From the IMG/VR virus record IMGVR_UViG_3300042892_000537, positions 1 to 37,693 of that record: DNA of 37,693 bases; one strand, given 5' to 3'. Each line of letters begins with the position of its first letter. Within the stretch, counting starts at the first letter, position 1. Below, piece by piece: positions 26,522 through 37,309 of the stretch. The notes beneath the pieces are model-generated. The model did not search any database. It had not been told where the DNA came from and saw only the letters and a list, made by a program, of their open reading frames with translations. This DNA comes from a virus. The position numbers and the translations under genes were made by a program.

Positions 26522-27478
26522 TTAGTCGTTTGTTGCTAGTTTAACTGTAGTATTAACTACAGCAGCATTCATGCTCCAAATTACTTGGGCATTTGCAGTA
26601 AATTGTGCACCTGGAGCAGAACCACCCGGTGTCAATGTACATGTGCGACTATCAATTTTTGTAACCCAGTATGTACCACTCGCTGAGTCAGTTGCCGTAA
26701 TAGTCATCAAACCTGCTGAAGGAGGACCACCAGCTGTATTCGCTGCGCCAACTTCTGTAGATTTAATTAGTCTCACTACATCTGTTTCTGTTGAATTTGT
26801 TACTCTATAACGACGTGAACCTTTTTGTGCAACGATATCAGCTGTTTGGCCAATTGTGCTAGTAGTCGTCCATGCGTTAGCTTGGATTGTATTACCTGTT
26901 GTAACTGCCGCTGCAAGAACTGATAATAATGAACCACCAAAACCTACGTCACCAAAGCTGATTGGTGATGAAATTGCTGATGTATTAGCTGATGAAAACG
27001 TGACATTACCTGTTGTAGTATTAACACTAACCACACGAGTTGGGCTACCAAAAGCTGCTGTAGTAAAGAACACGTTAGCAACCATACCTGCATAAATGCC
27101 TGATGTTACACCGCTTGAAAACTTAACTACTGTGCCACTTGCACCAAGATTGTAAAATCCTGTTACACCGTCAACTACAACGTTAGCCGGTTTGTTAAAT
27201 GTAATTGCTGGTGCTGTTAGATAACCAGTACCTGCTGTTGTAACTGTAACACCCGTAACGTTACCGTTACCTGGTAAACCGTTAACTGCTGGAATAACAT
27301 AAGCAATACTAGCCTCTGCTCTTGTTCCACCAATTGGACTTACTGCAAAACTAATTGTAGTACCAGCTGAGTAGCTGTTAGCACCACGTACTGTTACTGA
27401 TGATACACCTTCACCACCAGCTAATGATCCACCACCTACAGTAGTACCAAGATATCTTTTTTTAATAGGACGTCCCAT
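26522..27478 (-). CDS. Conserved virion protein next to the capsid gene
   Basis: A 318-residue protein beginning MGRPIKKRYLGTTVGGGS, an N-terminus I recall from marine T4-like phages. The first half has Gly/Val/Thr-rich strands, including TVTTAGTGYLTAPAITF. Residues about 113-175 hold the small shared beta module (SGIYAGMVANVFFTTAAFGSPTRVV). The C-terminal part, TADIVAQKGSRRYRVTNSTE, LMTITATDSASGTYWVTKID and FTANAQVIWS, is the most conserved-looking segment. It stands as its own transcription unit, between a late promoter with a structured leader (27499-27567) and a strong terminator. That isolation fits a protein needed in large, separately controlled amounts, such as a head or tail decoration protein; this is inference. 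Confidence 0.76.
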   Translation of the reverse strand: MGRPIKKRYLGTTVGGGSLAGGEGVSSVTVRGANSYSAGTTISFAVSPIGGTRAEASIAYVIPAVNGLPGNGNVTGVTVTTAGTGYLTAPAITFNKPANVVVDGVTGFYNLGASGTVVKFSSGVTSGIYAGMVANVFFTTAAFGSPTRVVSVNTTTGNVTFSSANTSAISSPISFGDVGFGGSLLSVLAAAVTTGNTIQANAWTTTSTIGQTADIVAQKGSRRYRVTNSTETDVVRLIKSTEVGAANTAGGPPSAGLMTITATDSASGTYWVTKIDSRTCTLTPGGSAPGAQFTANAQVIWSMNAAVVNTTVKLATND

Positions 27479-27498
27479 TTGTTTCTCCTTAAAATTTT

Positions 27499-27550
27499 AG
27501 CGTTCTAACGCCTACGCAGTGGGTAACTGCATAAACTCTCATTCAAGAGT
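27499..27550 (-). other. Structured 5' leader of the 318-residue gene
   Basis: The leader contains three short hairpins in a row: ACTCT/AGAGT (27535-27539 with 27546-27550), GCAGT/ACTGC (27516-27520 with 27526-27530), and a GCGT/ACGC pair near 27500-27512. AAGGAG follows, close to the ATG. They may stabilise the mRNA or tune translation. Confidence 0.5.
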
Positions 27551-33575: not shown

Positions 33576-35831
33576 CTACTGACTAGCCTGTAGTATTCCT
33601 GATGTTAGAGTGTTATTCTTTTGCATGGCTGTTAAAATTTGGTTTAATAGATCAGTTTGGTATTGCATGGCCTGTGATACTGCTCCACCCCCATCCATTT
33701 TAACTGGTAGTGTTTTACCGTCTGGTAATGGAACTACTGCTTCTGTGCCGTGTAATGTTGCAGCATATCCGCTTAACGGACCTGAGGCAATACCACCATC
33801 AGCAAATTTTGGTGTACCTGCTGATGGTACTCCCGCAAATTCTGCGCTTTTGGCAGTGTTCTGTTCAATTTGTTTTAATGTAGCAGTTTGTTCTTTGGCA
33901 TTAGGATCAGCTGTTTTATCGCCCAATGCAGAACCACCTTGACCTTTGGTTGGTGCTTGTGTTGATGCGCTTTGTGCTGTTGCTAGGGTATCACCTGCGC
34001 CTGATCCTTTGTTTGAAACTTCGTCAGCACTTGCCGCTTTACCGCCCATGGTACTACTTAATCCAGGGATACTAAAATTCAATCCTGTAATTTCTGACAG
34101 ACCTGCTAGCCAACCAATCGTTCCTGTAACCATTTTAATTCCTGTGGTTACAAATTTTGCTGATGCAGCTGATGCTGCCTCCATTACACTAGCATAAGTT
34201 GGCAATATTCCACTAGCTAGACTTTCCATTTCATTTTGGAAACTAGTCATCACTTCTGTTAATCCAACATAAGCACTAGTTAATCCGTCACTGGCTCCTG
34301 CTTGTGTGTTGGCAGCTCTCATGCTGGCTTCTGCCGCATTTGGATCATATCGATATTGACGTAGCGCATTACCAAATTGACTCATACCCTGGGCAACTGC
34401 ACTAGTACCGCCCGGATTCATCAATGTAGCAAAGTCAGTGGCACTTTCACCTGCGGCACGATAAGCAATAGCCGCTTGTCCTAAATTCTTTTGTGTTGCT
34501 GTGACCATGTTAACGTTGGCGCTTTGTACTTGTCTAGCCGTGGTTGTTAACATGTCCATGATGATTCTATTACTAGCAATCACAGGGTCAGTTACTACTC
34601 CACCTGCCAACATCTGTGCTAAAGCCGCTTGTAATTTAGGCCCTTGTTCGCCTGGCATAGCCGCTAGTGTAGCATAAGCATCTTGGAATGCATTGGCTTG
34701 TGCGCCAGTAAGACTATTCATCAATGCACCACGTTGTACTTCTGCACGTGCTTGCTCTATTAATCTAGCCGCATCCTGTCCTGTAATATCTGAAAGTACT
34801 TTTAGATGTTTGGCATATTCTTCAGTTTGTCTTGCTAGGGTAGCTGGCGCTATTTTTGACAAGTTCACACCAACTGATCGTTGTTGTGCCAAGTACTGGG
34901 CCATAATTACCTGTTGTTGTTCAAACGAATAACCTAATGCCAACAATGAATCTCGCACCACCCTGCCACTTTTACCTGTGGTGCTAGCCATGGCTCCCAT
35001 GGTCTTTGATATTAACTCTGTAGCATCACCCACGCTCATACCCATGCCTGTGATATAAGGTCTAGCCGCAACCACTGCCTTGGTAAATGCCACAATACCA
35101 ATACCCGATTGATTAGCATACGCAGCCATTTGACTCATTCCGCCCGCAAAGCTACCACCAATGCCAGCAAAAGCAAATAATTGATCAGCACGTTTTTGGA
35201 ACTCTTTTTCTAATATAGTGTTGACTGTGGTGAATATTTCATTAGCAACATCAATGATTGTATTAGCAAGATCACCCAATCCTTGTACAGCGTCAGCAAG
35301 ACCAGCACCAATGAATGGTACCCAACCTACCGCAGCTTTACCTAGAGCTACACCAATGTCTACACCAATGTGCGCAATTTGAAACATGACATTGTTGATT
35401 GTTTCTAATATACCCGCACCAGCTTTGATCGGATTTGCAGCCATATCGTCATAATTCATAAGGAACTTACCGGCTAGTGCGCCAGCAGTTACAGTTAGAT
35501 CACCAAATGCAGACTTAAGATCTGATTTAGCTTTAGACATAGCAATACCAAAATCACCAACAACCTTAACTTCTTTTTCGTAGGTATCAATTAGATCTTC
35601 TAGTTCGTTATTGGCTTTCTTCTGAGCTTCGGCTTGTTTGTTAGTTTCAGTTGTGTTTTTCTTTTGGGCTGCTAGGGCTTTAGCATCTGCAGCCGCTTTG
35701 GCCGCTTCGTCACGTTGTTTGGTCTTTTCACTCTTAGACATAACCGCAAGAAGTTTTTGCAGTGTGTCCTCCTGCGCAAAATTATCTGCTTCTACTGTCC
35801 CTATTCCGGGTATTTCAATTTTAACGGCCAT
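33576..35831 (-). CDS. Tape-measure-like tail protein
   Basis: A 751-residue protein, probably the tail length-determining (tape measure) protein, functional counterpart of T4 gp29. The N-terminus (VEADNFAQEDTLQKLLAVMSKS) leads into an Ala/Lys/Gln-rich coiled coil (residues about 30-85). A hydrophobic helical region follows at about 105-200, then long helical repeats. Residues 676-711 carry FADGGIASGP, SGYAATLHGTEAVVPLPDGKTLPV, a motif frequent at the C-terminus of phage tape measure proteins. The neighbours are gp26 and portal. Alternative: another hub protein with the same C-terminal motif. The ATG at 35831 lacks a strong ribosome site; a late promoter CATAAATA lies at 35869-35876. Confidence 0.65.
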   Translation of the reverse strand: MAVKIEIPGIGTVEADNFAQEDTLQKLLAVMSKSEKTKQRDEAAKAAADAKALAAQKKNTTETNKQAEAQKKANNELEDLIDTYEKEVKVVGDFGIAMSKAKSDLKSAFGDLTVTAGALAGKFLMNYDDMAANPIKAGAGILETINNVMFQIAHIGVDIGVALGKAAVGWVPFIGAGLADAVQGLGDLANTIIDVANEIFTTVNTILEKEFQKRADQLFAFAGIGGSFAGGMSQMAAYANQSGIGIVAFTKAVVAARPYITGMGMSVGDATELISKTMGAMASTTGKSGRVVRDSLLALGYSFEQQQVIMAQYLAQQRSVGVNLSKIAPATLARQTEEYAKHLKVLSDITGQDAARLIEQARAEVQRGALMNSLTGAQANAFQDAYATLAAMPGEQGPKLQAALAQMLAGGVVTDPVIASNRIIMDMLTTTARQVQSANVNMVTATQKNLGQAAIAYRAAGESATDFATLMNPGGTSAVAQGMSQFGNALRQYRYDPNAAEASMRAANTQAGASDGLTSAYVGLTEVMTSFQNEMESLASGILPTYASVMEAASAASAKFVTTGIKMVTGTIGWLAGLSEITGLNFSIPGLSSTMGGKAASADEVSNKGSGAGDTLATAQSASTQAPTKGQGGSALGDKTADPNAKEQTATLKQIEQNTAKSAEFAGVPSAGTPKFADGGIASGPLSGYAATLHGTEAVVPLPDGKTLPVKMDGGGAVSQAMQYQTDLLNQILTAMQKNNTLTSGILQASQ

Positions 35832-35842
35832 GGTTTTTTCGC

Positions 35843-35850
35843 TATAAATA
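35843..35850 (+). promoter_or_regulatory. Late promoter of gp26
   Basis: Exact TATAAATA on the plus strand; predicted start near 35856, leader of about 35 bases with GGAG 11 bases before the gp26 ATG. It faces the minus-strand late promoter at 35869-35876. Confidence 0.75.
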
Positions 35851-35890: not shown

Positions 35891-36736
35891 ATGGATCAAT
35901 CAATATCAAATAACCCTTTAGCCAAGCATTTTAGGCAACCTAGCATTTACCTAAAACTGCCCAGCGGTGGTCGTTTTTACCCTGAGGGAGCATTAGACTT
36001 AGATCCTACAGGTGAAATTCCTATCTATCCAATGACTGTCAAGGACGAATTACTGCTTAAAACGCCAGATGCACTGATGAACGGTAGCAGTCTAGTAGAA
36101 ATGATTGCTAGTTGCTGTCCTAGTATTAAAGATCCTTGGGTAATTCCGTTGATCGATCTAGACCCAATCCTTATTGCTATCAGACTAGCCAGTTACGGTC
36201 AAGGCATGGATATGAAAAGTAACTGCTCGCATTGTGAAGCTGAAAATGAGCACACAGTTGATCTTAGACATGTACTAGATACCATGAAGCCAATTGGCAA
36301 CTATGATCAACAAACATTCTTAAATGGCCTGGTATTTGAACTACAACCACAGACATTCAAAGAAATTAACACTGCGGGTATTATTGCGTTTGAACAACAA
36401 AAAATTGTTAATGTGGTTGGCAACAGCGAAATATCATTAGAAGATAAAAAAGCACAATTCCAAGCCAGCTTTGATAAATTAACAGAATTAAACATTGGCA
36501 CTTTGGTCAACTGTATTAAAACTATCACCACAGAAGACGGCACAGCGGTTAAAGAAAAAGAATTGATCAAAGACTTTTTAACACACACTGACCGTAAGAC
36601 TTACGAAAGTGTTAGAGATTTGGTCATGGTGTTAATCAAAGCCAATGCATTAGATCCTATGACTGTTAACTGTTCAGAATGTACTAAAGAATACAAAGTC
36701 ACCTTAGACTTCAATCAATCAAATTTTTTCGTATAA
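35891..36736 (+). CDS. 26: Baseplate hub protein (gp26-like)
   Basis: In T4, gp26 is needed to build the baseplate hub. The 281-residue protein (T4: 208) has the family opening HFRQPSIYLKLPSGGRFYPEGALDLDPTGEIPIYPMTVKDELLLKTPDALMNG, followed by CCPSIKDPW and a DLDPILIAIRLASYG helix. Two CxxC pairs (C112-C115 and C261-C264) may bind zinc. The final codons run through AAATTTTTTC (36721-36730), just before the stop at 36734-36736. Two overlapping -1 slippery heptamers occur there in the correct phase, the -1 frame is open into the gp51-like frame, and a stem begins 6 bases downstream. A longer gp26-gp51 product of about 356 residues is therefore plausible. The start is the ATG at 35891 with GGAG upstream. 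Confidence 0.85.
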   Translation: MDQSISNNPLAKHFRQPSIYLKLPSGGRFYPEGALDLDPTGEIPIYPMTVKDELLLKTPDALMNGSSLVEMIASCCPSIKDPWVIPLIDLDPILIAIRLASYGQGMDMKSNCSHCEAENEHTVDLRHVLDTMKPIGNYDQQTFLNGLVFELQPQTFKEINTAGIIAFEQQKIVNVVGNSEISLEDKKAQFQASFDKLTELNIGTLVNCIKTITTEDGTAVKEKELIKDFLTHTDRKTYESVRDLVMVLIKANALDPMTVNCSECTKEYKVTLDFNQSNFFV

Positions 36737-36804
36737 GGCTTTTGACCCTCTCTAACGAGGAAATCGTAGACTTGTTAGATAAAATGGAAGGAGAGTCAAA
36801 AGCC
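36721..36804 (+). promoter_or_regulatory. Candidate -1 ribosomal frameshift signal joining gp26 and gp51
   Basis: In the gp26 frame the sequence reads A AAT TTT TTC. A AAT TTT (36721-36727) and T TTT TTC (36724-36730) both fit the X XXY YYZ slippery pattern. After a 6-base spacer, GGCTTTTGAC (36737-36746) pairs perfectly with GTCAAAAGCC (36795-36804), and TCTC with GAGA extends the stem after a small bulge. The -1 frame has no stop from the slippery site to 36960. Confidence 0.6.
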
Positions 36805-36960
36805 ATGCGAGACGATGTACTTAGAATCTGCTGGTACATGCGCGGCTCAATTTCCTACAGCGACGGAATGTTGCTAGGTCACACAGATCGAACGATAATC
36901 AACAAGATCATCAAAGATAATATGGAAACTACCCAAAAGAGCGGATTACCGTTTTTTTAA
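36742..36960 (+). CDS. 51: gp51-like baseplate hub assembly protein (possibly only as gp26 fusion)
   Basis: A 72-codon frame ending in a highly conserved-looking sequence: LRICWYMRGSISYSDGMLLGHTDRTIINKIIKDNMETTQKSGLPFF. I associate this with the short reading frame that follows gene 26 in marine T4-like phages, often labelled baseplate hub assembly (T4 gene 51 also neighbours 26); the link to T4 gp51 itself is tentative. There is no ATG at the start of the conserved region. The only nearby option is the TTG at 36742, with AAGG just upstream but buried in a stem; the first ATG (36784) would cut off about 14 residues. The frame is -1 relative to gp26 and open back into it, so expression by frameshifting is an alternative to TTG initiation. 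Confidence 0.72.
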   Translation: MTLSNEEIVDLLDKMEGESKAMRDDVLRICWYMRGSISYSDGMLLGHTDRTIINKIIKDNMETTQKSGLPFF

Positions 36961-37075: not shown

Positions 37076-37309
37076 ATGGAAATCTTAGCAACAATTAAGA
37101 AGTGGGCAAGTGCCCTTGCAGATACAACAGTGAGTGTTTTAGCATTGTTGATCGTGTTAGAAGTATTATTCAAGGGAGCAGCTATCCCATTTCTACCAAC
37201 AGTAGATGTCATTGGTTCAGTAACAAGCATCATTAAATCAGTGGGATCAGAAGGTGTTGTTGGTTTAGTGGCAGTATGGGTACTGTATTCAATTTGGAAG
37301 AACAAATAA
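37076..37309 (+). CDS. Small two-segment membrane protein
   Basis: A 77-residue protein with two hydrophobic segments, residues about 18-42 (TTVSVLALLIVLEVLFKG...IPFL) and 60-73 (GVVGLVAVWVLYSIW), separated by a short loop. It ends in a basic KNK. The start is the ATG at 37076 with a strong GGAGG 8 bases upstream, and a terminator follows at 37342, so it is a single-gene unit. I recall similar short proteins in marine T4-like phages without known function. Size and two membrane segments would suit a holin or another inner-membrane factor, but there is no lysin gene beside it in this window to support that. The opposite-strand frame over the same bases is a shadow. Confidence 0.8.
   Translation: MEILATIKKWASALADTTVSVLALLIVLEVLFKGAAIPFLPTVDVIGSVTSIIKSVGSEGVVGLVAVWVLYSIWKNK

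Follow-up and report, generated by a model that had tools for sequence, protein, structure and literature searches.

Tail-chaperone frameshifting is already well known as a kind. The lambda gpG/gpGT tail assembly chaperone frameshift, with counterparts in long-tailed phages, was reportedly described by Xu, Hendrix and Duda in 2004. In the logic of this system, one gene supplies a short/long protein pair through low-level -1 slippage, a frameshift described as conserved among long-tailed phages "except T4" (PMC5009743). For T4, a published table lists both gp26 and gp51 among the hub assembly chaperones; gp51, whose function is given as unknown, is essential and is not found in the particle (PMC3004832). 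Here, the IMG/VR virus record IMGVR_UViG_3300042892_000537 was analyzed over all of its 37,693 bases (hereafter, the window). It derives from a large, uncultured, T4-like phage. The window carries a gp26-type (PF12322) gene, a putative tail or hub assembly chaperone gene, whose end very probably holds a programmed -1 ribosomal frameshift that would produce a short/long pair like G/GT.

The 0-frame product of this gene belongs to PF12322 (T4_baseplate; 62.8 bits in a profile search, against a cut-off of 24.5) and to phrog_150, baseplate hub (73 bits). A GGAG ribosome site lies upstream, and the AlphaFold2 model of the gp26-like body has a pLDDT of 85. Read by codons, the gene ends tcA AAT TTT TTC GTA TAA. 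Two overlapping in-phase heptamers, T TTT TTC and A AAT TTT, fit the X XXY YYZ slippery pattern, and a slip on either gives the same product (...S-N-F-F-R-I-R-L-L...) of 280 + 76 = 356 amino acids (aa). The -1 frame is open from the slippery site through the end of a C-terminal extension (Table 1), which AlphaFold2 models as all-helical (pLDDT 89). Past a 6-nucleotide (nt) spacer, a perfect 10-bp stem begins 7 nt downstream of the slippery site (+7), within the approximately 5–9 nt expected of a stimulatory structure. At the sequence level, short and long isoforms are thus encoded by one gene, as in G/GT. An earlier note, made from the window alone, had named the gene gp26 and had claimed both heptamers ahead of its stop, a -1 frame open through a gp51-like frame, a single product of about 356 residues, and the stem 6 bases after the slippery site. 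The name is right given the PF12322 match, and the remaining elements were confirmed, the heptamers to the base and the open frame to 36960.

A phage nucleotide search with the window gene and an IMG/VR search with the single protein returned no match. The family was opened by tblastn, and then by alignment of the fused proteins. By tblastn, a gp26-like protein was found in 88 phage records, chiefly jumbo myophages (28–32% identity among the matches listed); in a 9-sequence alignment, divergence was too high for a pattern search. Gene ends were read in eight jumbo phages (including PA5oct, RaK2, 121Q, BF, Phosso, XaC1, XacN1, and Atu_ph07) and in the best 80 of 553 IMG/VR relatives. Together with the window these make 89 loci, of which 62 sequences form a non-redundant set (<90% identity). 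Seven further phages were checked: Salicola phage SCTP-2, the cyanophages P-SSM2 and S-PM2, Pelagibacter phage HTVC008M, KVP40, PhiW-14, and Cr30.

The gene ends in NNT TTT TTC at all 89 loci, except for a single TTT TTT (XacN1). The -1 frame, never another, continues directly into a homologous extension that starts at the slip and spans 70–79 residues, apart from three loci that end at a contig edge. The seven further phages also carry T TTT TTC or T TTT TTT at the gp26 end, followed by a -1 extension, which widens the overall range to 57–79 residues. The TTT TTT variant occurs in three phages, XacN1, HTVC008M, and Cr30. The recurrence of the same arrangement in these relatives already refutes gene decay and errors of sequencing or assembly, whose probability is negligible.

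Of the two heptamers, T TTT TTC alone is invariant in relatives: 41 of the 62 sequences have AAT ahead of TTT TTC, and the rest have AGT, CAT, CGT, GCT, ACT, or GAT. All 62 sequences have T at the two free wobble positions (of NNT and TTT), compared with a background of 64% and 70% T in the same genes. The corresponding chance would be about 1e-12 and 1e-10 if the sequences were independent; because they share ancestry, the true values are larger. Across the 62 sequences (about 4,525 codons) the -1 frame is free of stops, versus 390 and 422 stops in the other frames. Among ten close relatives its pN/pS is 0.31, versus 1.07 and 1.63. Judged from these comparisons, the conserved -1 frame that continues from the slip site is under purifying selection, and the arrangement is not due to chance.

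The best stem beginning 4–15 nt downstream was compared with control windows from the same gene. No control window of the window gene holds a stem as strong as its own. In 53 of the 62 sequences no more than 5% of the control windows match the downstream stem in strength, and its 5' arm is most often at +7. Among the 31 sequences with the stem type of the window, 7 of 17 stem pairs show double-sided changes. Stem covariation is 0.140 versus 0.091 ± 0.009 after shuffling (reached in 0/500) and at most 0.075 when the partner is slid. Other groups keep the place of the stem with an altered sequence or partner, such as GGCTCTTTGT/ACAAAGAGCC in Atu_ph07 and CCATCAAGTCC/GGACTTGATGG in XacN1. Cyanophage stems are 11 bp at +6 (P-SSM2) and 14 bp at +10 (S-PM2). 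These features bear on a different source of the frame change, slippage by RNA polymerase within the T run. The run of six Ts, which reaches seven or more in XacN1, HTVC008M, and Cr30, gives this idea its footing. However, six Ts are short for efficient transcriptional slippage, the run is exactly six in most relatives, and only ribosomal shifting would lead one to expect a stem that keeps a constant ribosomal spacing and shows compensatory changes. Transcriptional slippage is therefore very unlikely.

Initiation within the second frame was also considered. In this alternative, the extension would be a small gene in its own right, whose translation begins at TTG 36742 or ATG 36784 or follows termination-reinitiation at the gp26 stop. 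An ATG does overlap the stop in a few relatives (Atu_ph07, Phosso, and 121Q), and some database records annotate the extension as a distinct gene: gp51 is annotated separately in P-SSM2, S-PM2, and KVP40, the cyanophage and KVP40 records call the extension gp51 or hub assembly catalyst, and in BF, XacN1, and XaC1 it appears as a shortened hypothetical protein with a start downstream of the slip. In the public annotation of PA5oct and RaK2, the -1 frame is missing entirely. However, 16 of the 62 sequences lack any ATG, GTG, or TTG in the first 20 extension codons, and separate initiation therefore fails. A start with a ribosome-site core is present within those 20 codons in only 8/62, and 49/62 have no ATG in the first 15. 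Additionally, the conserved F-F-R-x-R-L-L crosses the junction upstream of any annotated start. A separate gene would also leave the invariant wobble Ts and the stem unexplained, and the probability of this alternative is slight.

The slippery site, the stem, the conserved coding -1 frame, and the lack of alternative starts can all be read directly from the compared sequences. The earlier note had proposed that the second frame lacks an ATG near its conserved start, and in the window none occurs in the -1 frame before 36784. Its suggested checks in relatives were run, and they returned T TTT TTC/T in all relatives examined, covariation in the stem, and no conserved start or ribosome site for the second frame. 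These results support its proposal of -1 frameshifting.

We infer that the slippage is ribosomal and that its efficiency is such that most ribosomes would read AAT TTT TTC GTA TAA and release the 281-aa short form. At T TTT TTC, with the hairpin 7 nt ahead of the ribosome, a fraction would slip back one base and translate 76 more codons. The predicted long form would have the same body followed by a helical C-terminal domain. The pair would most likely coat or escort a tail length or hub protein, the long form bringing in a partner as the tail is assembled.

Several observations weigh against this reading. The AlphaFold2 model of the gp26 body matches no solved tail assembly chaperone in the PDB (E ≤ 0.001), so homology to lambda/HK97-type chaperones is unsupported. 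The window gene does not lie between tail tube and tape measure genes and has no tail tube gene adjacent; the KVP40 order (tail tube, gp26, gp51-like) instead counts in favor of the reading. No outstanding stem was found in 9 of the 62 relatives, which include RaK2, 121Q, BF, and XaC1 of the enterobacterial and XaC1 jumbo group. Lastly, the window extension is tied to T4 gp51 only indirectly, via the extensions of jumbo phages.

The extension model likewise has no PDB match at E ≤ 0.001. Neither model matches a solved chaperone, so the chaperone role of the pair stays putative. In a viral structure library, T4-like hub proteins and unnamed phage proteins were matched. Weak chaperone-profile matches of the body (phrog_21995, E 0.41; phrog_15960, E 0.011 in PA5oct) were not used because they are absent among the families that most members match. 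The frameshift could also be real while its products form a structural component of the baseplate hub. The family names say baseplate hub, and earlier genetic work on T4 assigned gp26 to the hub; against this, T4 gp51 is required without being part of the particle, and both proteins are listed as assembly chaperones (PMC3004832). In PA5oct, neighbors of gp26 are flagged as detected by mass spectrometry whereas gp26 is not, a weak point in the same direction. A structural role for the products, in place of a transient chaperone role, is unlikely.

By position and protein family, the predicted short and long forms correspond to T4 gp26 and gp51, respectively. Both T4 proteins are PF12322 members, and gp51 consists of a gp26-like body with an extra C-terminal tail. 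In whole-record searches, two PF12322 genes were found in T4, RB43, a Krischvirus, Aeromonas phage 31, an Acinetobacter phage, and a Proteus phage, and one in S-PM2, P-SSM2, HTVC008M, KVP40, PhiW-14, Cr30, and eight jumbo phages. Each of these single-copy phages carries T TTT TTC or T TTT TTT followed by a -1 extension, whereas the short genes of the six two-copy Straboviridae have neither a slippery site nor a -1 extension. SCTP-2 has the slip and the extension, though its gene fell below the PF12322 search. The extension of P-SSM2 matches the gp51 family phrog_634 (1e-28); the window extension shows no match to this family by profile. The window extension is clearly homologous to those of jumbo phages (99.9%), which in turn match the cyanophage, KVP40, and T4 gp51 tails weakly (58%, E 1e-4), and a direct comparison of the window extension with the cyanophage and T4 gp51 tails is poor (0.5%). 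The label gp51 used in the earlier note thus holds by position and through this indirect link, but not as a direct family match. Frameshifting is likely to be ancestral for the short/long tail chaperone pair across the T4 superfamily, jumbo phages and cyanophages included, with T4 genes 26 and 51 a later duplication that replaced it. If so, the "T4 exception" to the conserved tail frameshift would be confined to some Straboviridae.

Table 1. Features of the frameshift gene and its surroundings (window coordinates).
Feature	Position	Strand	Evidence or remark
gp26-like gene from ATG, 0-frame short form of 281 aa	35891..36736	+	PF12322, phrog_150, upstream ribosome site, AlphaFold2 model
Overlapping heptamer A AAT TTT, in phase, optional in relatives	36721..36727	+	Preceding codon AAT in 41/62
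Slippery heptamer T TTT TTC, in phase	36724..36730	+	NNT TTT TTY in 62/62 non-redundant relatives
6-nt spacer containing 0-frame stop TAA 36734-36736	36731..36736	+	Sequence
Stem 5' arm, GGCTTTTGAC	36737..36746	+	Perfect over 10 bp; no same-gene control window as strong; covariation
Stem 3' arm, GTCAAAAGCC	36795..36804	+	Pairs with 5' arm; covariation
-1 frame C-terminal extension, 76 codons plus stop TAA 36958-36960; predicted long form 356 aa	36730..36960	+	Homology, selection, AlphaFold2
Possible T4-type late promoter box for gp26 gene, TATAAATA	35843..35850	+	Resembles T4 late promoter
Divergent neighbor, structural or tape-measure-like protein	33576..35831	-	Same position in PA5oct, RaK2, 121Q, BF, Phosso, XaC1

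The earlier note had described an adjacent, divergent, tape-measure-like gene. The neighbor is divergent and its RaK2 homologue is annotated as similar to tape measure protein, but profile support for the label is weak. In the gap between this neighbor and the gp26 gene sits TATAAATA; such boxes are not above chance in the window. The window gp26 itself has two conserved CxxC pairs (residues 112-115 and 261-264), invariant in 9 divergent sequences, which are possibly a metal-binding site. Downstream of the frameshift gene, 37076-37309 (+) encodes a 77-aa hydrophobic protein with no family match, probably a membrane protein. Elsewhere, an Rfam freshwater-2 RNA (RF02980) was found at 27476-27550 (-), with 50.2 bits against a cut-off of 49.9. 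It lies just upstream of the start of an open reading frame at 26522-27478 (-) that is weakly head-closure-like (phrog_460, E 0.0015).

The proposed frameshift would extend the tail-frameshift rule to many uncultured and jumbo T4-like phages and correct their annotation where the gene is missing or mis-started. It also suggests that T4 gp26 and gp51 act as the short and the long member of a tail chaperone pair. Frameshifting and gene duplication would then offer a natural comparison of two ways of fixing the ratio of two proteins.

Vladimirov, Gautam and Davidson reportedly identified tail assembly chaperones of T4-like phages in 2022 (Virology 566:9-15), in a work whose title favors a mechanism different from frameshifting. 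PMC12846349 cites this work for poly-T signals in such genes, and PMC10885494 also cites it. The TAC-N/TAC-NC pairs of Vandenendeviridae and Andersonviridae, which have a GTTTTT slippery motif, resemble the window pair by description in a poly-T -1 frameshift in a myophage tail chaperone, proposed there too on comparative grounds, but they belong to other phage families (PMC12846349).

The lambda gpG/gpGT system shares with the window the use of one gene, a -1 slip near its 3' end, a minor long form with a C-terminal extension, and the proposed role in tail assembly. It differs in gene order and has no sequence or detectable fold relation to the window pair, which would use T TTT TTC and a hairpin. 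The likeness to G/GT raised in the earlier note is therefore one of logic, not of homology. T4 gp26/gp51 (PF12322, phrog_150; gp51 tail, phrog_634) share the protein family and the short and long forms, but T4, like the five other Straboviridae, encodes them as two paralogous genes. The cyanophages, HTVC008M, KVP40, PhiW-14, and Cr30 share T TTT TTC/T at the gp26 end and a -1 gp51-like extension, which is shorter (57–63 aa) and weakly similar to that of the window. Compared with these systems, the new elements may be the breadth of the frameshift, the covariation in the stem, and the clean division into single-copy phages that have the frameshift and two-copy phages that lack it, part of which may already be published.
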